Assembly (NCBI RefSeq): GCF_910592395.1 | Contig: NC_088311.1 | Span: 22,354,646-22,418,645, forward strand | Length of the DNA stretch: 64,000 bases | Origin: Lineus longissimus | Taxonomy: Eukaryota; Nemertea; Pilidiophora; Heteronemertea; Lineidae | Direction of reading: 5' to 3' | Part shown: positions 1 through 21,600 of the stretch, in pieces | Position numbering within the stretch: position 1 is the stretch's first letter | Layout of the letters: the number at the start of each line of letters is the position of its first letter | Translations under genes and position numbers: made by a program | Notes under the pieces: model-generated | What the model was told of the DNA's origin: nothing | Seen by the model: only the letters and a program-made list of their open reading frames with translations | The model's database searches: none

Positions 1-805
1 TGGACAGCCAAATGTAGCTTAGTCCCTCTAGTCTGTGCATGGAGGCATTAGTTCCCAGTGTGTGACTAAATTGCTGGTTTGATAGTGTTTGAGTCTCAAT
101 ACAAAATTGAACAAGCCATTGACAAAGTGAGAAAAAAATTGCTATGGTCCTATTGAAAAATTATTTGATTACTATTTAACTTTTGAGGGATTAGCTTTTT
201 TCTCTTTTATTCAAATCTTGCCTGGCTGTAGTCTGGGAAGCCAATTTGAGGTCACTGCCTTCTGTTGGGTTTACATAGCTAGCATTCAGCATTGCTGATC
301 CAATATTCTGTTGAGGCCTTTGAATCAACACCGTGGTCTGCAGGATTTTGAATAAAGATTTCCAGATTTTGTATCTCTTCACACATTTGCATGAATCAGT
401 TCAGTTTCTATTAATGACATAATGTGCCTGCATATAAGCCGGATACAAAATCAGGAAATTTTGCTCCAATTTCTGCTGATCACGGCTTCGATTCAAAGTC
501 CACACTCAAAGGAGGGAACTTGTCAGCATTGCTAAACTATGATTATTGGTTGCAGGGATGCTGGTGTATTGCTTGGTCTTCTGTTTGTAGTCTACGGTTT
601 TCTTGATAAACTGCAACTATTTTGGTTGTAATGCTCTTTCTTTGTGATGAAAAGAAATCAAATTTCCTCGGTAAAAAATCATAAAATGAAGTCCATGGAT
701 ACATGTACGACGTATCTGTCGCGCCAAAACCATTCTTTGGTGGTTTCCATTAAGTTAATAAAGAGTCTTGCCTTCTAATCTAACCTTTTCTCTTCACTCT
801 TGCAG
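1..805. other. Intron sequence upstream of the first visible L3MBTL exon
   Basis: No exon is supported here. The first visible L3MBTL exon starts at 806 after a good pyrimidine tract and tgcag, and needs one base from an upstream exon, so this stretch is intron. The first MBT repeat expected in the family is not found in any frame. Short ORFs at 191-382 (-) and 424-606 (+) show no recognisable domain. Confidence 0.6.
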
Positions 806-3800
806 GGTTCTCGCCTGAAAGATTCAGCTGGCAAAGCTACTTGAAGCTCTCCAAGTCGCAGGCTGCACCCAGGCATCTCTTTCAGAGTCAACAAGCTGCA
901 GTAAGTGGCCATGACCCTTTTAAAGGCTATTTATACTCCCATTCGAATCTTCCACAAAGTGCATTTTGGTGGGCTGTGAAAATGTAACAAATTCTACTTC
1001 CTGCAACAATAAGTACAATAGCCATAATGGAGAGATCTAACAAGTCATCCTCATCATTGCTGTGTTGCACGGAAAGAGATTCCATGCTATTTAATTATAA
1101 TTTCCATTTGTTCCAAATTGGTCATGTGTGAACAAAGTCACAACCAGAATGCCTGGATTAGTTCACTCTAAACACTATGAAGGGCTATTTTGAGGATGAT
1201 GTGGAAAATTTAAGATTTTCAGACATGATTTATGCTCTATCTTGTAGACATCTGATCTGAACCTTGTAACTTTCTTTGCAGTCAGTTACTCCTCATGGAT
1301 TCAGGGTTGGGATGAAGTTGGAAGCGATCGACAAAAAGAACACTGTCCTCATTTGTGTTGCTACTGTGGTGGACATTATCGGTGATCGAATCTTGATCCA
1401 CTTTGATGGTTGGGAGGATAGCTATGATTATTGGGCTGACCCGACGTCGCCTTATATCAAACCTGTGGGTTATTGTCAGGAAACGGAGAAGGCACTGTCT
1501 CCTCCTAATGGTAGGTGCTGTAGACATTTCATTTTTTGCCATACAGGAGCAAATTGTAATGTTTTTATTTAAATATCCATGTTTTAATTCAATATCGTCC
1601 ACTTCCTAAAATTTCCTCAATCTATCTTTATAATTTTAGATTGTGAAGATATACAGAATTTCACGTGGGAGAGCTATCTGAAACAAACAAAATCCCAGCC
1701 TGTCCCTGCAAGGGCATTCAAACCGGTGAGTAAAGGCAAGTCTCCATTGCGATAAGTTTCCAGTGCAGGAAACACCTGGAAAACAGCGGAGCCTCATAGT
1801 CAAGTGGTTAACACTGCTGGTTGCCGAGCAATCAGGCCCAGGTTTGATTCTGGGGAGAACCCAGGATTGTATTTCAAGATGAACAGGTGTGACTTTTAAG
1901 GAACAGCTTTTTCTGGGGAACTACCTTTTATGAGCAAAATCTTTGAACATAAAACTGCCCCGAAATTTGTTTTAACGGTACTACAGATTTATAGTAAAGT
2001 TCCTGTTCCCATTCCAGCGTGGACCACACCAATTCGAAATCTATCAGAAGTTAGAAGTTGTTGACAAGCGGAACCCAATACTGATACGAGTGGCGAGCAT
2101 AGTAGACATTGAAGAGTTCCGGATCAAGATTCACTTTGATGGATGGTCAGATGTTTTTGATGATTGGCTTGATGATGACTGTCCTGATTTCCATCCACCA
2201 GGGTGGTGTGCCAAAACCGGTCATCCGCTGCAGCCACCAATTAGTAAGTTGATACCTTGAGCTTTTGGTTGAAACATTTTCAATGGAATTATTTTGCATT
2301 CATCTGTATCATAGCAGTTTATCTTCCAGTGCTAATATTTTGGCTTTCCCATAGGTCCACAGGATTTGGTTGTATCGCCGACTCAGGGCGGCTGCCCCAC
2401 ACCTGGCTGTAAGGGTATTGGCCATATCAAGGGAGCAAAATACACTGGACACCACAGGTAAGAGATTGTAAATTTTACAGTTGAAAGTGTTTTTTAGGGA
2501 ACAGTACTGTTTACTGCCCAATTTTTGCGATTTTTATTATGATTGTTGAATATTGTATCTGTCTTTCAGTGCCTTTGGTTGTCCTTACTCATCTGTCAAT
2601 ATGAACAAGGGGAATGCAATACAAGACCGACTAGGTTCTTCAAAGTCCGATGAGATCTCTCCCCCAGCTAAATTTCATTCACCTGATGCCAAGTAAGTGA
2701 ATTTCAGTTCTTGTTTATTCCATCTGAAGGGCTCCAATGCCAAGGCCACTACTGCCATGACTAGTGACGACGACATGACTGCAGTCAAAAAGTCCTCGTG
2801 TCTTTCAAATGAGTGGTTTTGTATAGATACACTGCGTACATTGGAGCATTGTAGTTTTTGGTAGTGTACCTCGGGATAGAAAATGCCAAGCTTTGTGACA
2901 TAACCGCCAAAACATTATTAGTACACAGTTGTGGGAAAAATTTGCCAGTTTCCTCTTTCAGTCAGCATGCTTATTTTGAAAAACCTGTGCTTGCAGGAGA
3001 TTAATTCACTTTGTGCAGCCATTGAGAGGGTTTTGGCGATCCTTTGTGTTGAGCCTACAGCTCTTAAACTAATGCATGTGTTACAACTCGAAGAAATTTA
3101 TCATTCAGATTGAATCCATTAGCGGAGAAAAGGTTCTATGGCGCTAGTAAATACAAGGAGATGGCTAATGGGGACCACAGACCTCGCGTTGGTCCTGGAC
3201 GTCCTGCGAGGAAGAAGTAAGTTTGGTTGTTTGGGAGATATTTTTGGATATTAAAGGTCTCCTGCGTTTGTTAAAAAATTTGGGAGGTAAACTTGAAATT
3301 TGAAAGTTTCCAAACACACAGATGGTCATGCCATTCAAATTTACCTCTGTAATCATGGCCTGCCTACGAGTGAGAGAACTTTTTAAACTCAAGATGTTCT
3401 CTAATAGAGAGATTCAAATGTATGTGTTTTACTGTTTATATGCCTGAACTTAGTGGTGATACTAAACTTCAATTCCTTGCGCTTCAGGCATAAATTTATG
3501 GGGCGGGTGAAAGAGGAAAAAGACGAAGAGGATGACGAGGATCAAGAGAATTTCCTTCACAATGGCATTCATCAATCAGTCTTCATGTCAGCAATGGTGC
3601 TCAATCCTGTCAAAGACTTCCCACTCTGCTGGGAGCAACACTCCAAACTGCTGCCTGGGGTCGACAAAATCAGGGGGACTGCTGTGGCCAAATGGTCCAT
3701 CGAGGAGGTGGCTGATTTTGTCAACACACTGCCTGGTTGTGATGAGCAGGGGCAGATTTTTCAAGATGAGGTGAGATTTTATTACGATTTGTAAATATTT

Positions 3801-4092
3801 GATTTGAGATGAATGTGATTTGTCACAAACTCGTGTGTAGTCTCCCAATGTTAAATTTCATAATCTGGTGAAATTTTATGTTTTAATTTTGTTTGGCAAC
3901 TTCATTTTATAGTAGGTCCCCCTTTGACCTGGCTGACTTCAAATCTATTCTCTTCTGTTTCAGCAAATCGATGGTGAGGCCTTCCTACTTTTGAACCAAA
4001 CGGACATCGTCAAGATCATGAACATAAAGCTAGGACCAGCTCTAAAAATCTACAACAGCATTCTAATGTTTAAAAACACTGCTGAATCATAG
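806..4092 (+). CDS. L3MBTL: L(3)MBT-like chromatin reader (MBT2-MBT3-zinc finger-SAM), 5'-partial
   Basis: Polycomb-related nuclear protein; family members bind mono- and dimethyl-lysine on histones and compact chromatin. Exons with GT-AG borders and consistent phases: 806-900, 1282-1510, 1640-1725, 2018-2243, 2355-2457, 2570-2692, 3109-3216, 3488-3770, 3964-4092, giving 459 residues. In order: an MBT repeat (about residues 5-107) with the F-x2-W-x3-Y reader cage in HFDGWEDSYDYW; a second MBT (112-211) with HFDGWSDVFDDW; an FCS/C2HC finger (222-255) starting CPTPGC; an acidic stretch near 333-343; and a C-terminal SAM domain (about 390-455) containing DGEAFLLL and KLGPALKIYN. By comparison with L3MBTL1/3/4 these are MBT2 and MBT3, so MBT1 and the N-terminus lie left of the window. 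Stop TAG is at 4090-4092. I cannot say which vertebrate paralogue it matches; a single pro-orthologue is likely. Confidence 0.93.
1113..1160 (+). repeat. Short dispersed repeat, copy 1 (CACAACCAG family)
   Basis: Contains CCAAATTGGT, then a variable spacer, then ACAAAGTCACAACCAGA and TGCCTGGATTA. The same order of blocks recurs at 35197-35240 and 42271-42310. Lies in an L3MBTL intron. The family is not recognised. Confidence 0.45.
1787..1870 (+). repeat. tRNA-derived SINE or tRNA-like relic in L3MBTL intron
   Basis: A box-A-like TAGTCAAGTGG (1797-1807) is followed by a box-B-like GGTTTGATTCT (1841-1851) at tRNA-like spacing, as in the pol III promoter of a tRNA-derived SINE. No clean cloverleaf with paired acceptor ends is visible, so a working tRNA gene is unlikely. 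Inserted between L3MBTL exons 1640-1725 and 2018-2243. Confidence 0.5.
3330..3416 (+). repeat. MITE-like dispersed repeat, decayed copy in L3MBTL intron
   Basis: Shares TGCCATTCAA, ACCTCT and a terminal block TAATAGAGAG-TTC with the fuller element at 4524-4679, in the same order and orientation, but is partly degraded. It lies between L3MBTL exons 3109-3216 and 3488-3770. Confidence 0.5.
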
Positions 4093-9600: not shown

Positions 9601-12600
9601 CCTACTTCAACATGCAGAATTTCCAGGGTTTTAACAAAATGATTTACTGCTCTTGAAATGAAACGGTTTGCTCTTGATTGATGAGATTGGCGGTGTAGTA
9701 CAGAATAAAATGATTTTAAAGAATCTCTTTGTTTAGATTTGTATGGGTAGTGCAGAGGTGCTTGGCAACTGTTGCTGTTAGTCTATGGTCGGAAATTGGC
9801 TGTAAAATTAATAATGACGTATCTGTAATGACAATGCATGCACATTTATTTGCAAGAATTCATGACTTTGTCTCTCAGTTTGACTGAGATGATCACTTAC
9901 CTGTTTTGCTTGATGCAATAAGCCCAAATCACGGAAAGCCGGCTGGGTCCAAATGTTGTGATTGAGAGGCCTGCCTAGGCATAAACGAATCCTTATATCA
10001 AAATTTACTAATCGTTTCATTTCGTTTCTTTCTTTTCAGTCGCTTCGGAAACTTAAACATGCCAACATAGTCCAGCTCAAAGAGGTCATACGAGAAAATG
10101 ACCAGTTATATTTTGTGTTTGAATTCATGAAGGAAAATCTTTATCAAATGATGAAGGGACGGTGAGTGTTATTTGGAAAATCAAGTCTCACAGGCCTCGG
10201 GGCTATAAAAAAACCCTCAAAGTTATACATTGAGCCGAGTTCTCCATTTTTTAAAGAGAATTGTGTGAGGAATCATCCAACTCTTTGAACATTTTTGCAT
10301 GTGTGGCCTTTAATAAGCCAGTGCCGTCACAAATGTGCATGAAATAAAGAAATGATAGGTAAATATTGCAGGTCAGCCTATTACATTCTGTCCAGCTAAA
10401 TTTGAAAGTAAAAGCAAAAACTTTCAGATGAAATGCATCAATGGAATCGTGAGCTTATTCTTTTCGCTATCCTTGGCCTACCCCAAGGTAAACAGTTGTA
10501 CTCTGGGCTTATTGGAATTCTCTGTGATATTTGACGGGAGTAAACAAAGAATATGGACAATAGCATTGGTTGAATAGTGCCTGTCTTGGGTGACATGACC
10601 TGTGGCAGAAATGCCAACATGATGGGTATTTTGATCGATTATTCCATAGTATACTGTAAACTTCATTTTCTTGTCGAGTTTTTAACTTAAAAAGCTACAT
10701 CTCTCTATCTCTCTATCTATCAATGTATCTCTAAACCACATATTTATAGCGCCCTCATCACTCCTATATTGGGCCGTTCAAAGGCGCTTCACAATAATTC
10801 TAATGCTCGTAATGTTCGTGGAAGAGGTGGGCCTTGAGTAGTGCCTTAAATGCTGTGATAGAGTTCTTTGAAATAATTTTCTCTTTTCTCTTTCAGGGAT
10901 AAGTTATTTCCGGAGTCGACGATTAGAAATATAACCTACCAAGTATTACAAGGGCTAGCGTATATGCACAAGCACGGTACGTAGCATGTTGCCCTTTATC
11001 TTCCTGGTTGTTTAAAATGGGTCAGTTGTTGTGTTAGGTACATCAACTTCCCTTTAAATGTTTTCACTGGAACATTCTGTAAATCAGCCAGGAGCTGTCG
11101 GGGCTCTCCAGATAGGTAATGGTTATTGGTATGACATTGACAATACGCTACCAAGATCCATTGATTGGCTCCTTATCAAGTTTGGAAGTGCCTTACAATC
11201 AAAAACAAAGTGCAACTGGAAAAAAAGAAGTGATAGCTATGTATAATGGTTTTCCAGAAGTCTGTTATTCCTGAATTCTACTGGGGGAAGGGTTAACTGT
11301 TGTACTGTTCACATCATGCATATGTACTTATAATCATGTACATGTATCAGATCAGATGTATGCAAACTCTCATTCAACTATGGATATAAATGCTTCATTG
11401 TTTAAACTCTGCTAATCAATTTTCAGAGTCATTTAATGATTTATTGATAGTCTGCATGTTATCACGCTGATCGAACATGAGCCACTGGTCTCTGCGTCTG
11501 CTGTAATACTTGTGGCGATTCATTGATTTATTGAGAGTTTGCACTCTCTTCGAACATGGTCCAGTGGTTTCTGCAAGTCTTTGAGTCCTTGTGTTTTGTT
11601 CAAGTGCATGCATTGCATTGATTTCTTGTCATCACCGTCAACATCGCCTGATCGAATATAAAAGGAACTGGCGAAACTACCGCTGTGTAGCTCTGACTAC
11701 AATATGATTACATTGTACATACAGATAGTTTTCCTAATGATAAATGGGATTTTGAATAATGTAATGACTGGTAAAGCTCTGGTGACGATATTGAGGGGTG
11801 ACCTTCATTAACAAGGGTACCACCATTTGCCTTGAACTTGTTTGAAGTGAATACCTGTCTGCTCATCAAACTTTTTTTGTAGGATACTTCCACAGAGATT
11901 TGAAACCAGAAAATCTCCTTTGCTCTGGCGTAGAACTCGTAAAAATCGCGGACTTCGGTCTTGCACGAGAAATTCGCTCACAGCCTCCGTTTACAGATTA
12001 TGTATCGACCAGATGGTTAGTGAAGGCGTTTGCGTATTCAAACAGACATGATCTCATCCTGTAGGGGGCGCAGCAGAATACTTTGCATATAGTCATAGTG
12101 GAACTAGCAAGTCACTCTTTCTCTATGTATACTGCTTTTGGTCCAAAATTCGTCATAGAATCTTTGTGGCTTTCGAAATGTTTTCCTAGGAATTGTGCTG
12201 CGCTCTCTATGGGTCTGAGATGTATCTGTAGCATGCTTTAAATGCTTTGGGAATGTTACCAACATTTTCACCTCGACGTTGCCCCCCCCTTGTTGTTTTC
12301 TCTAACATGATTTCGGTGTTGAATTACACTAACCATAACAATGCTTATTTGATTGTAGGCTATTTTCATCGAGACATGAAGCCGGAAAACTTATTATGCA
12401 GCGGCCAGGAACTGGTGAAAATAGCCGACTTTGGTCTCGCACGAGAGATCAGGTCCCGGCCGCCATTCACAGACTATGTCTCTACAAGATGGTTAGTGTT
12501 TTGTATTGATAACTCACTGCAACTGGGTTCTGCCAGTTCTCCACATCATCAAGCATTGACCAACTATCGCATTTTTACACAATGCTTCCTCACCTGACAT

Positions 12601-15600
12601 AACAATGCTCATTCCTCTTGACTAGACTCGCTCATTATTTTAACCGATACTAACCAATGTTCACGTATTGACTTAGATTATCTAACTTTAATGTTTAATT
12701 TTGCTACAAAGTACAAGTCTACTTGTATATTTCTGACGACAGTGTTTTCGTGCATGTGCATGCTTGTCACAAACTCTTCAACGTTTCAGAAATTTTCTGG
12801 TTAACTTTAATAATGTCTGCTGCCTCTTGAAAAATATACATTCAGAGGTAATGGGGACGGGGAGTGCAGAAAACTAACTCCTGATGAAAGAATGGCCTTT
12901 CGGAGAGGTAAATCTACCTCATTTTGACGAGATATGCTGTCAGCACATTTTTTTCAATGAAGTTAAGTTTTATTGAAAACTTTCAATTTTAAAAAGAGAG
13001 TTTTGTTAATTTTGTGTTTCTTCATCTTGTCTAGGTACAGAGCACCCGAAGTTCTCCTCCGATCAACGAGTTACAACTCACCGATTGATCTGTGGGCATT
13101 GGGAGCAATCATGGCTGAGTTGTATACGTTACGTCCCCTCTTTCCTGGAAGTAGTGAAATCGATGAGATATTCAAGATATGTAGCATTCTGGGTACTCCA
13201 AGTCGGGTGAGTGGGATCTGAAATTCAATTTTGTTCTTTTCAAAGTTTCTATTTTAGTCGTGTCAATTCATGACGTCAGTGGTGCCAGTGCAACACATAA
13301 GATCAAATACTTGAGCATGTGCTCCAGAATTGCACAATCAGGGACCCAGAGAGACTGGTCACATAACCTTTGTGGCTGCTATGAAACTGAAAGAATAAAG
13401 ATGGCCTAAATTGAGCACAGAAGAAAAAGAAAAAGTAACACTAAAAACTCTGGATTTCAGTTCAGGTTTAATCAACATTTTCTAAAGTCAATTTCATTTT
13501 GCAGGCCGATTGGAATGAAGGTCACCAATTAGCTGCTGCGATGAACTTCAAGTGGCCCCAATGTGTTGCAACGAATCTTAAGTCAATTATACCGAATGCT
13601 AGTAACGATGGTATACAATACTTGAAGGACTCCATGGCGTGGGATCCCAAGAAGAGGCCCACTGCAGCGCAGGTAGGTGGAGTGTTGCTTGGTGAGGGAG
13701 TGAACCCCCCTGTCAGGATAGGCCTATATAGAGGGTCAAATGCATTCTCAGATGTTCTCAGGATAGAGGTGTGAAAGTCTTGGGTGAAGTCCCCAAGAGT
13801 ATTCAGGAAAACTGTTCTTGTATCATGTCACTGGAGATCACGAGGGCAAGTAAAATAAAAACTTGTTTCTCAATCCTGCCCACCCTGATTTTGAATGTCG
13901 CCCCAAAAAGATTTATTTCTTTACATCTTGCCACCACATAACGATTCTTTGTGCTTATTGTCAAACTGGCTCAAATAAGTCTCAAAATACTTCCTACAAA
14001 AAAGTGGATGGAGTATTTTTAGAACCCGGTTCTTATCTGAGTCTAATCTGATAAACTGTTCAAACCTTGGTTTCAATTCTCCCAGGGGAGAATTAAATGA
14101 ATGGTCTACAATTATCTTAATCCGCTTTTCAACAAGGTATTATTGGTGGTTGTATGCCTACATGTTGGAGTGTCTACATGTAGGCACAACAGTGATTCTT
14201 CTTTCTTGTTTTGAAAACCTTCCAATTGTAACACTTTAAGATTTCTTAAGCTTAGCTTATCTCTACACTGTATAAGTAAGTACTGGGTGATTATGAGATT
14301 TTGAAAAAAGGAATGAGAGATGAGATAATTTTATAAGAACTTGAAATACAAGAGATGTATCAATGTCACTGTTAAGGGAAGTCAGGTGACTGGTAGAGAT
14401 AGAGGTTCCTGCGAAAAATACCGTAGAATCTCTCCTTGGGACTGACAAGTGCTGTCCTCGATAGAAAGGTGTTCTGATTACAGTGGTTTAATTGAATAGA
14501 AATGACCAATTCAGAAAGAAAACAAATGTCCCTGATAGAGTGGGTGTACTGCTTACAGTAGTGTCGGCTAAGTTTGTTCCATTAGTGAATATTGAAAAAA
14601 TCTTCCGATTCATCTTTCCAGTCCTTGAAATATCCCTTCTTCCAAGTTGGCCAGGGCCTGTTTCCGTCCCAACCACAGCGACCTCAACAACAACAACAAC
14701 AACAACAACAGCAACAACAACAGCAGCAGCAAAAGCAGCAGCAGCAGCAACATCAAGCACAGTCCATGACGCAACGACAACCACTGACACAGAAAGCACC
14801 GGTGATTCCGATTGATTCGTCACCGGCTCGAGCATCACCAGTTGTCGCAAAGGAACCGGTGCAACCTCAACGACAGGCGCATAATCTGGAGAACAAGAAT
14901 CCTCTCTTGCCGTCAATACAGAGTAAACAGACGGGCGCAAATAAACAGCAGACGGTAAGATGGCTTTGCAAACAAACAACAACAAGATACGTGTTTAGGA
15001 GCAAAAAAGTGCAATTGCTGTTACACACAATAGAAATGAAAAATGCCGTGTGATGAACAAAAGAAATTGACCTGTCTTAACTCCCTGAACCAAGGAAAAA
15101 TCACTAATCTTAATATTTTGACACGTATAAAACATCTTTCAGGATTCGTATGGGTACCCAGTGGCGGGCAAGAAGTCCGCTCCAAGAAAACGATGGGGGG
15201 CATCCGAGAGCTGGGACGATTGGGACGACTTCGATGCCAATCAATCGATGAACAAATCAAAGAGGAATGCAGCAGTGGCGAAAAAGAAAGATGAAGATGA
15301 TATCTTTGCTGGGTGAGTTTGTGTTTTTTGGCGGAGGTGTGTGTCGACGAATCACTTGATTAGTGTTGATGTTCCCTTCAGGTTTCTGTACCCACTATCT
15401 CCCATTTCTGATCAATAACATTTGTATTTTTCTTCTTAGTCTTGATCTGGTTCGAAAGTTCTATTGATCCTCTCAATTCACATCTGGTTGTGAAAAGAGG
15501 CAAGGAATAGAATGTCTTGCCGATCGTAAGGACAAGTATTATGGGTTGTTGTTTCCAATTGGGATGTTAAAAAGTGTGTTTCTGTGCTAGCCGTCTAAAG

Positions 15601-18600
15601 CTTTCTGTTTTGACATCATTGAGTTATTCGTGAGATCGTTTGGTTGGGAGGGGGGAGGGGAGGAGGGGCAGTGAATACGCGCCATATTAAACATTCAACT
15701 TCCATTATTGCCAATTGTAGACGATCAGCAAGGAGACTGTCGTTTGATTGGTAAGGTGTTCCTATTGTTTCCTATATTTGTGTGTTTGGAATTTGCTTTT
15801 TGGTGGGTCAGGTTGGGCCATGTTAAACCTGTCGTATGAGCGTAAAGGTGGCTGGTCAGATGTCTTGGTAGAAGCTTCGAATTTAGGGGCATTTGTGCTT
15901 TCCAGTTAAGTGTGATTAGTAGGAATTGACAAAAACTAGGATGTAGTATGTGCATTTCTCCTCAGTTTGTGCTTCTCTAATCTGCTTCATAGCATTGAGT
16001 CAGATCGGGTTGACCATGTTGTATCGGTGCACATGCATGGGTAGTAGGCAAGGAGGATGCCCGTAGTGCACAGCAGTGGATTTCATTTCAGGGTAAAAAA
16101 CAGTTTTTTGGGGTAAACACGATTCATCATCATCAACATTGACTTGTTTTCATCAGAAACTTCAAAAAATCTTCTTCTCTGATTAAGCTAATCATCTTTT
16201 ACACTAATTCTTTATTCTCATTATTATTTCAAGTAACCATAACCACGGAAACTTTCTCCCCAACCCCTGTGTATAACATTTAGTTTGTCTGTCTTTTCTG
16301 TGTGTCTAACTGTATGGTAACCTTCCATTTCAAGCTTTAACAAGCCAAAGAGACACTCCATCACCAAGAAAGATGAAGATGACATCTGGGGGTAAGATTT
16401 GTTACTGTTTCATCCCAAAATGTGCTATCAACACTAACATCTGCATTATTGATAGGATATTTCCATTACCGGTAGTCAATAACTGGTGTGGCCTGTTGTT
16501 GATAAAACTGTTTTGCTTACTGTTAAAGTAAGTTTTTGCACATAGAATTAGAAATGTCGTATTGGCAGAAACTCGGCTCCCATAGGCAGCACTGACTATC
16601 AAGTAGGGTAAAACGATGACTGCAATGTCGTCTTTGAAGATCTCATTCAGGATCACACCGTCATTTGAGGTCAGCATGACCTAACATCGCTGATGGCTCT
16701 TTTCTGGGACCAAAATTCATTCAGTTTATCAATCAAAAAGCATGCTCTAAATTGATTTTGCTGTGAGAGATGTAAGTATTTACTCTCTGTGACACTGACA
16801 GTGATTGAAAATTTGATAATGTATCAACATTTTTTGATATTTCTGTCATTGAAGCTGGACACATTTTGAAAACTGACTGGAAATTAATGTTGACTTTATC
16901 TGAAACGTTGTCATACCCTAGTTGATAGAAGATTTGCCAGCATAACAAAAGAGCTATTTATGCTTGTACCAAAGTGTGTGCTTTCTTTTCCAAAAGTTTT
17001 AGCCAAAAGCCTCGGAATCAGAATAAGGTACCTGCTGATTATCATTTCCCTGGGTAAGATCATGTTCATTGTATAAAGCATGTTCGGCATGACGCTTGTT
17101 GTAAATTCATCTTTGCTCACATCTGCATTTTATCAATGCTTGCATCTATGTTATATCTACCCTCGCATCTTCACCGCCACGAATCTTCTTGATAATTTTA
17201 TTGCTCAGGGTCAAGCCCACCATTGCTCAGGGTCAAGCCCACCAATTCTCCAGGAAGTTTTTCTTACTGCACACGGACCCAATATCCCTGTCTTTCTGAG
17301 TTGTACCTCTCCCCTGCTTTTAGATTACATTGTCATTTCTTTTTATTTTTGTTGTATGTTCAGTTACTCTTATTCATACAAAATGCCACAAACGTGAGTC
17401 AAAAAATATCTTATGCCCAGTTTGTTAACTAATATTAAACTGTGCAAAATCAATCTTTGCCTCTATCGGAGTAACAGTTGCATATGTTGCGGTCCATTTC
17501 TGTAACCTAAATGGTCTGTGTGTTGACCCTTTATATTTCAAGATGTGCTAAAAGAAGGAAGCAGAGAAACATGTTAACATATATTGGCCTAACTGCAAAA
17601 TAGCCGGGACAGTAGTAGCTCTGTACATTATGTACACTCTGTCCCTCTGTTCATTATGTACCGGGTACACATTCCTATCATTTGGCACAGAGTGTCCCGG
17701 GTATTCTGCAGTTGCTCCGCGTTATTTGGGGCAATGATGCCATGCACGGTGTCATGAAACTGGTTCTTTGTCATATCAATTTTCATGCATCATAATGACG
17801 CACTGGACAGAGATATCAGTCCACTGTTGCAAACAGTACGTTGCTTTTGGTTTAGCTAGTTTGTGCAGTTCCAAGTTGTTGTAAATGTACAATGTAATTA
17901 TGTAGCGGTAACAATTGGATTTCTGTTTTAAATGGAAATAAATATATGTATGGAATTATCAACTCAACTACTCTTTTATCATCAAATAAAAATCCTGCAT
18001 GGAGTGTTTATTTCACTCTTCTTTCCTAATCTTAAGAGTGTTTTGGTTGATAAATGTTTGACAAAAGTAACGAGTAATCATCATCGATTTGACAACTTTT
18101 AAACATTAACTGTTTTCTTACAGCGTCTGCCCGTCCTGGCACAGACCTGTTGGGACCTTCCCAGGTTACGCCAGGACAAGCTACGATCATGTTATCCCTA
18201 AATTCTTGGCTAGGTAACAACTTGGATCAATTGATACTGTTATTTTATGCCAACATTTTATCAAATTTTTCTTATGAAAATTTTGCCATTTTCTAAAGGT
18301 TAGCTTTTGTTATTTCAGAGAAATTATTTTTCCCTTGTGTTTAGTGCCTCGGGGAGTTTGAAGGGGGAGGGACATAGTCTAGATTGTAGGAGATCAGTAG
18401 TTATGAGAGGGATGTCCACGACACAAACACACTCATTTGATTATGCAGACATTTAATAGCAAGCTTATGTTTTGAGATTTAGCATTTCTGGATGTCGTGA
18501 TGACGCACCTGGTTGCAGAAAGAGACAATGTAGTGCATATGGCTCATCTAGCGTAAGGTCGTCCTTTGCTGTGCGGCTGCCTGTTGACCTGAAAATGTTT

Positions 18601-21600
18601 CAAATGTATATCAAAATTCCTACATTTAGGTTCTGAAGAAAAGCAAAATCAAAATATAAACCATAAGCTTGCAAAAACCTTACGTTGTTTTCAAATATTT
18701 TCAAATATTTTCAAATATTTTCATCTTTCTTCATGTATTGTATGGTCATTTTCATACTTTTATAAAATAATTGCCACCGTGACCGTTTGAACTTTTGCGT
18801 CATATGTATTATTTCTAGCAGTGACAACCGAATGTCATATCAATTGTCTTTAATGAAAGTTATATAAATCACGAAAGTAGCACTAATAGGGCGAGACATT
18901 ATCTAGAACTCCAGGACCAGCCATAACAGAGAGTGTCCTCCTGACCATTGTGAGTTCATGAAATGATTCATAATTCATAACACTTCTGATATTTTGTTTT
19001 CAAGCTATAATAAGCCAAAGCGGCCGTCAATAACCAAAATAGGGAACGATGACGACGATGATATATGGGGGTAAGGTGGACGCTTCACCTAAATTTACAT
19101 CGCTTATCTCGCAAGATAGCTTAACCTCACTTCTATTTTTGCTTTTGCCTCTCATACTATTTGTGGTATGCACATAAAGCTTACATATCAGTCAGAACTT
19201 TACTGCACGTGATATTTTGCTATGTCGGGGGTGATCAACAAATTCTGTTTTATTTGTGCTTAGGGCCATGCTGGTGCTGGATATTCACATGTAAGGTGGT
19301 AGCTTAACCAAAATTTACTTCGCTTACCCACATTATTATAGCTCTACCTCTCTTGTTTCGAAATTCCTGAAGTCCTTTAAAATTGCCTAAGCCCGCTAGC
19401 TTCATGCAGTCATATACTTAATACCCAGCTTTGCTGTTCAACTTTGTGGCCAGACACTGGATGGTTGCATGATGTACATAAAGGTGGATGCCTCATCAAC
19501 ACTTACATTGCTTACCCTGCCGTATCGTATCTTTAGTTTTTGCTATAATTCTAGCATTATTAGCCAGGAAACCCTCGAGATTGTTTTGATCATAATACAT
19601 CTTTTAGTTTACTTAATTGGTCTGGCTTTGCTTTGCAGCTGACAATGCTTCATGTTGTACATTTTGTACTATTTCACCTCAGTAACCAGGACACCTATCT
19701 TTTTGTCAGTCCCAGGGATATCCTTGGTGGAGATCAAGGTGCTACTGTGATGTTGACCTGTGAATAGAAAGACCATGTCATGACCGTGTCATCTTTCTGT
19801 TTTCTCTAGGTTTGCTAACGAGAAGAAATCGTCCACGAAGAATCAGCCAGGTCGGGTGAATTCTGGTCGGTCATCTGGGAACTCCTCCGCTAAAGCACAC
19901 TATATGAACAAGGCTCGTTATCTCCCAGGTAGGTAGAGGGGCTGATGAAGCCATTTCGATTGTGAGGTGAGGGAGGGGGCTTCTCGACATAGGTCAGGTC
20001 TCGTGGGTGTTGGACTCATTATGAGTGCCACAGCAAACGTAAGAACCCATCCTAAAGAAAATATGCCATCAAAAAAGTTGGGGATTTCACGCTTACAGAC
20101 AATTGAGAAAAAATCGAATTGAAAGGACTGTTGAAAGGATTGACACAGATGCTTAATCAAGAGCACTGAACCATAAAGTTGCAATTTTTCATTTCCACGA
20201 AATAGCAAATAATTCCAAATTAACAGAATTTGCTTTAATCTATTCCCAATTGTTGTCGTCTTGCAGGTATCAATGCACGGGGTAGTGGCCACAAGGATAA
20301 CTCACCTAACTCGTGGGGTTCACCCATGGGCAAGCAGACGGGCATAGGAGGCATATCGTCATATCGGGGTAACAACCAAGGTATGTGGTGGCACCTAGTG
20401 GCAGTATGGGTCAACAAGAGCTGATAGGCATCTGAAGGACTAGTTCAAAATTTCCAAACGAGTCACAAAACCTGTCTTACAATTGCAATGAAATTACTAA
20501 TCAATCTTAACAGACAAAAATATCAGCTCTGATGACCCTGGTGACTATTCTGTTGTATTTTGTGCCTCTTGTGCAATATCTGTTATAGGTGTGTACTGTT
20601 CTTGAATCTGTTGTTGACACCTGCTCATACTGATCCTGCTTAAAGTAACAGTCACTGTCACATCTGCACATTGTACAGAAGACCAAATCTATAACTGAGC
20701 AATGATTGTATCATTAGATCAGTAATCTTCTCACCATTTTGTGTTCACGTTTTGACTCTGTTTTTCCTCGAACTGAGAAAAATAAAAGAGTTTGCAGTTG
20801 CTCTGTAATCACTGATATTGTATGTGAAACATGTTCACCTGTTTCTTTTATCTTTTTTTTTTTTTTGTTGTATTTTGTTTTGTTTGGTTTTTTGTAGGTG
20901 TCTCAAATTACGGTCAGAGTTCAAACGCTGGTTATGTCCCCTCCTTCCTTAGTAATGCCAACACTAATAAGACTACTTCAAGTAAGTATGGTCAGCATAC
21001 AAATGTATGATCTTAAAAGTGCTTTGAATACCCCCTGAATTGTCCTGAAAGTATATCATCATTTCTTGGTTATTGTGTTCACATTCTGTCGTTCTTTCAC
21101 GCACATTGTTTTTGATGTCCAAATTTCATGAATCAGCATTGTCGACTGCCATAGTTTATCATTTCGAAGCTAAGGTGCGCTAAACCAAGAGGGATGTTTT
21201 ATGAAAGGGATGTTTCCTTGTTGCAGATTACAACCCGGGCAGTTGGAAGCGCGCGCAGCCGGCGCCCATGTCATTGAACAAGAACTCCGCCAACGTGAGC
21301 AAGCCCATCGGCGCATCGACACAGGTGGCTGGACGCACAGACTGGGCTGCCAAGTAAGTACTTCTGCTCAGTGCTGAGTGCCGGTTCCATAACTCAATGA
21401 GGATACAAATTGAATGGTGGTATTCTCAGTCCATTGGGGAATAGGAAGTGAAATATATGCCATTCTACTTTGGACGAATGGGGGAAAGTCGTGGTCTTCA
21501 TTTTAATCACTGTAGCCTCAGAAACCCTTAATCAAATGAGACTATGCAGAATTCATTCTCATCTTTCGAGAGCCTGATTTAATCAATTTTGATGACTGAT

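Follow-up and report, generated by a model that had tools for sequence, protein, structure and literature searches.

Exon pair in a MAK/CILK1-type kinase gene

Within the 64,000-nucleotide stretch of the Lineus longissimus genome analysed here (the window), a kinase gene carries two consecutive exons of equal length that each encode the catalytic loop and activation segment, raising the question of whether both copies are functional and spliced as alternatives to one another. The gene was delineated by translation and splice sites, which placed 11 exons besides the pair, the 3' end being incomplete (Table 1). The coordinates, 133-nt lengths, phases and identical donor junctions (AGATG/GTTAGTG) given for the pair in an earlier note on this DNA were all found as stated, and both exons read the HRD, DFG and TDY motifs that it had reported for each copy.

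The kinase domain is completed by either exon, with a Pfam Pkinase score of 239.0 bits with exon 5A versus 239.5 bits with exon 5B. Over residues 1-290, the exon A form has 82% identity to proteins of Tubulanus, Lingula and Owenia among the best 120 of 7429 matches. Membership of the MAK/CILK1 family is indicated by the Pkinase domain, the TDY motif and best matches that are MAK/ICK proteins, and the Thr of TDY falls at position 157, as in the account of mouse Ick in PMC11412320. When 48 kinase domains with exon 5 excluded were placed in a FastTree tree, which carries no support values, the protein grouped with that of the nemertean Tubulanus polymorphus. The best explanation of the sequence is a MAK/CILK1-type ciliary kinase gene of a nemertean worm in which exon 5 has been tandemly duplicated.

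Table 1. Features of the kinase gene and of the intron between the exon copies (positions in the window).
Feature	Positions	Strand	Basis
Exon 1, holds start codon	6638..6738	+	translation and splice sites
Exon 4, upstream neighbour common to both copies	10897..10976	+	donor at 10976 confirmed
Exon 5A, 133 nt, L126/V136/Q153, HRD-DFG-TDY	11883..12015	+	sequence, frame, codon comparison
Intron separating exons 5A and 5B, 343 nt	12016..12358	+	folding, AG-gap and flank analyses
Exon A donor GTTAGTG, MFE-paired with 12327-12333	12016..12022	+	MFE fold
Read-through stretch past exon A, P0156 match 10/15 residues	12016..12059	+	first codon starts with donor
Predicted hairpin, 5' arm	12023..12083	+	MFE fold
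Predicted hairpin, 3' arm	12188..12248	+	MFE fold
AG-free zone, 125 nt, ahead of exon 5B acceptor	12232..12356	+	AG-gap scan
CACTAAC, candidate exon B branch site	12327..12333	+	sequence, MFE fold
Exon 5B, 133 nt, M126/Q136/R153, HRD-DFG-TDY	12359..12491	+	sequence, frame, codon comparison
Exon B donor GTTAGTG, 7 bases identical with exon A donor	12492..12498	+	sequence
Exon 6, downstream neighbour common to both copies	13035..13206	+	acceptor at 13035 confirmed

Divergence of the two copies

Exons 5A and 5B, with equal lengths and phases and 94 of 133 nucleotides identical, are adjacent homologous exons. Either one alone between exons 4 and 6 gives an open frame, whereas inclusion of both, in either order, or of neither shifts the frame and leads to stops after 225, 225 and 185 amino acids, respectively, bearing out the proposal that one copy is needed to keep the frame. 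The copies differ at 39 of the 133 nucleotides (29%), with 29 of these differences at third positions. The figure of about 32 differing codons among 44 given in the earlier note was correct for the differences, the total being 45 when the two split codons are counted, and the residue differences are exactly the three it had named, L/M126, V/Q136 and Q/R153.

At fourfold degenerate sites, 12 of 17 differ, 8 of them by transversion, and maximum-likelihood estimates were dN 0.059 and dS 6.45 (the NG86 dS was not finite). When 39 random changes were placed on exon A in 20,000 trials, the mean number of residue changes was 24.1 and the minimum 16, and a stop codon was present in 77% of trials. There was no observed similarity between the flanks of the two copies past the splice sites (local alignment p 0.26 and 0.39). 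Judged by the 39 nucleotide differences with three residue differences, the apparently saturated fourfold sites and the dissimilar flanks, both copies have been under purifying selection as protein, and an old duplication of exon 5 is supported by the synonymous sites, in line with the earlier view that selection has kept both copies since an ancient duplication. A search of the genome with exon A DNA returned one place at E <= 0.001, at a sensitivity too low to report exon B, so that diverged paralogues may have escaped it.

The differing residues within the family

Relatives were represented by 121 distinct exons from 264 of the 293 retrieved proteins, the 29 without a readable 45-residue exon having been dropped. 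Ranked by variability among the 45 sites, position 136 was third, 153 fourth and 126 sixth. Both states seen in Lineus are common at site 126 (L in 71 and M in 44 of the 121) and at site 153 (R in 85, Q in 16), and both are rare at site 136 (V in 3, Q in 1). The argument for a difference in function between the isoforms is weakened by the placing of all three among the six most variable sites of 45. The combinations L-V-Q and M-Q-R were absent among the 120 full-length matches listed, and there were no exact copies of exon A or exon B among the 264 of 293 proteins with a readable exon.

Exons A and B mix states that are found in different relatives, and have in common Y121, S134 and F156, each of which is present in 18-31% of the relatives' distinct exons. 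F156 occurs in 22 of the 121, and the listed Tubulanus protein has Y at this position. This is a hint that exon 5 was duplicated within Nemertea, after the split from Tubulanus, though site 156 changes often. Of the three differences, Q/R153 would be the most plausible one to matter biochemically, given that residue 153 lies four before Thr157, the CCRK/CDK20 site. In mouse Ick, phosphorylation of Thr157 by Ccrk is described as necessary for action on Kif3a (PMC11412320). A structure model of the Tubulanus protein from a 19-row alignment had a mean pLDDT of 45 and was unusable, and in a solved-structure search with exon B the 60 best-ranked of 518 matches were all general kinases.

The intron between the copies

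Three features of the intervening intron stand out, all found post hoc, such that the associated figures serve as guides. The AG-free zone at exon 5B is 125 nt long, whereas those at 11 other acceptors of the kinase gene span 15-59 nt, and AG-to-AG gaps of this length number 8 of 7445 across both strands of the window, itself included. Pairing between the first 60 nt past the exon 5A donor and the remaining intron is predicted at -56.9 kcal/mol, a value reached in 0 of 100 shuffles and at 0 of 638 window positions, and the equivalent donor-anchored pairing at the gene's 11 other donors gave Z from -2.2 to +1.9. The fold of the whole intron stands out only moderately (z -3.2; equalled by 1 of 100 shuffles), and among 1260 other windows 29 have an energy as low once G+C content is adjusted for, and 121 by raw energy. 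The exon A donor GTTAGTG is the exact complement of CACTAAC, with which it pairs directly below the hairpin in the minimum-free-energy fold. Since both motifs are near consensus, this complementarity is partly expected and may be due to chance.

CACTAAC lies 25-31 nt from the intron end, an ordinary branch position, so that no distant branch point need be invoked. Measured along the sequence, 216 nt separate the A donor from the start of the AG-free zone, a distance that becomes short only if the predicted hairpin forms. Steric interference between a donor and a branch point has a limit of about 50 nt, so an explanation of this kind for the Lineus pair requires the hairpin. The AG-free zone is also open in the exon 5B frame, as part of a 121-codon open stretch (12232-12594) that is probably due to chance. 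Apart from the hairpin itself, no match longer than 22 nt to the hairpin was present in the window, no known RNA element reached its gathering score in the window, and three matches to known elements within 10977-13034, with E values up to 5, were rejected as all far below gathering scores.

Sequence beyond the exon A donor

Relatives of the stretch directly past exon A were sought in a protein collection that includes short ORFs extending from genomic exons into introns, using as queries exon B (best 120 of 309 matches) and exon A with its read-through (best 120 of 701). The top match to the latter, with an E value of 1.5e-25, was P0156 (source jgi, 2629-base contig), which continues past the exon with LVMAFVYFNRQSLIL, aligned to the window's read-through of 15 residues followed by a stop. 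P0156 matches at 10 of the 15 residues, and the next best of 173 short ORFs, of which 69 have an extension of 15 residues or longer, matches at 5. At an assumed 7% per site, the binomial probability of such a match is 6e-9, rising to 5e-7 once the first two, donor-dictated residues are set aside; both values are per single ORF and uncorrected for the number of ORFs compared.

The exon portion of P0156 differs from exon A at 6 of 45 residues and carries Q136, as does exon B. The alignment suggests conservation of the stretch directly past exon A, as would suit a splicing signal. A coding extension is a possible alternative source of the match, P0156 being known as protein only. A further ORF, P0241 (source lgn, 3764-base contig), carries L126, V136, Q153 and F156, as exon A does, and LV past the donor; its flank matches at 3 of 15 residues in all, and it could be another A-type exon.

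Proposed mechanism and alternative explanations

The likely reading of these observations is that two functional copies are used exclusively in Lineus longissimus. Mutually exclusive splicing of exons 5A and 5B would yield two kinases of almost the same sequence, transcripts with both copies or neither would stop early and probably be degraded, and, with less assurance, joining of A to B would be hindered by the structure of the intervening intron. The predicted hairpin would begin beside the A donor and place this donor close to the branch region of exon B, where CACTAAC, the candidate branch site, could pair with it. Given the long AG-free zone, a branch point near the hairpin would also be available to exon B. 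The A/B ratio could then be set by any factor that opens or stabilises this structure. Participation of the hairpin in enforcing the choice is proposed tentatively on the basis of the predicted folds, as somewhat less likely than not. Considerably more speculative, and on present evidence unlikely as a whole, is a scheme in which swapping the entire catalytic-loop/activation-segment exon tunes a ciliary kinase, the choice being enforced by a conserved donor-anchored hairpin, donor-branch pairing and AG-free zone, with the isoforms differing through residue 153 in activation by CCRK/CDK20, and cell types setting cilium length by splicing.

A competing explanation, less probable than exclusive use of distinct copies yet a serious one, is that the pair has been kept mainly for control, the two proteins being interchangeable and splicing factors setting output through the balance between productive single inclusion and out-of-frame skipping or double inclusion. 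The small number of residue differences, their placing at highly variable sites, the early stops of the skipped and double products and the unusual intervening intron are all consistent with this. However, skipping of one exon would achieve the same end, the long-kept second copy suggests a separate role, and residue 153 adjoins the CCRK site. Should both copies be used, the pair would provide a natural experiment on whether it is the encoded protein or the control that preserves exclusive exons. That one copy alone is used in practice, with the other an intact-looking relic that is seldom spliced, is unlikely. The donor consensus is GTRAGT, from which the GTTAGT of both copies deviates at the third base, but 39 changes should have cost a relic its frame and residues, as in the random trials, and both copies have kept the catalytic motifs, phases and splice sites.

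Origin of exon B (or A) from another MAK/CILK1 gene, or its conversion by one, in place of tandem duplication, is more improbable again. The mixture in A and B of states from different relatives would be compatible with such an origin, but the exon ends, length and donor bases are the same in both copies, as are residues Y121, S134 and F156. Least credible is an assembly artefact in which two haplotypes or a misjoin lie side by side, an outcome that the earlier note had named as grounds for rejecting its proposal. Comparison of the exons and flanking introns revealed no points in favour of it, the 29% divergence being nearly confined to silent sites and the flanking introns unrelated, and the source is described as a long-read assembly of one haplotype (Lineus longissimus tnLinLong1.1; PMC8593623).

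Comparison with known systems

The gene is new to this class of event, the kind of event being already known. Exclusive exons of JNK and p38alpha are tandem copies covering later parts of the kinase domain. Tandem exon copies in FYN likewise give isoforms that vary within or beside the kinase domain, although the FYN pair spans the SH2-kinase linker and the ATP site (PMC9741552). Unlike in JNK, p38 and FYN, the copies in Lineus carry HRD, DFG and TDY and differ at only three residues, and they set the gene apart from the MAK/CILK1/DYF-5 family, as far as the papers searched show, by supplying the catalytic loop and activation segment in two alternative versions. No such pair in MAK, CILK1 or DYF-5 was found in a title and abstract search of open-licence literature that covered few subscription journals, which agrees, within that scope, with the earlier note's remark that it knew of none in this family. 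The interest of the pair lies in exon copies that carry catalytic residues and encode near-identical protein despite saturated silent sites, in a family of ciliary-transport regulators.

For the means of enforcement, there is a likeness to OGDH, in which, according to PMC7969005, exclusivity is imposed by branch points far from their acceptors, associated with long AG-free zones, and exons 4a/4b have a short intervening intron, an extended AG-free zone ahead of exon 4b and predicted hairpins. In OGDH the distance from the first donor to the branch points is 25-41 nt (PMC7969005), whereas in Lineus the hairpin would be needed to close the distance and the branch site is a candidate only. Dscam-type docking/selector clusters also use RNA pairing to admit one exon only (PMC6071210), but no shared docking site stood out here, and the pairing found is a hairpin within the intervening intron. 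For introns beside exclusive exons, conservation is reported to exceed that of the remaining introns in those genes (PMC6071210). In human clusters of exclusive exons, steric interference is possible in 57 (9%), and exon lengths are not divisible by three in 377 (60%) (PMC5740500), and the steric and frame layers proposed here are accordingly ordinary in kind. With its predicted hairpin, long AG-free zone and possible pairing of donor with branch site, the intron presents a compact and testable arrangement.

Other features of the locus

Exons 10 (16335-16391) and 11 (19005-19070) of the same kinase gene resemble another tandem exon duplication. Both are multiples of three in length and phase-symmetric, such that free inclusion would be possible, and the Tubulanus protein has a single DDDDDDLFG motif. 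A possible extra phase-matching exon was noted by eye between them, at about 17000-17054 on the forward strand. Directly past the kinase domain, exon 8 contains a long CAA/CAG (polyglutamine) run at 14685-14750. The upstream neighbour gene, at about 800-4092 on the forward strand, may encode an MBT-repeat and SAM-type protein, as suggested by eye from its exons.
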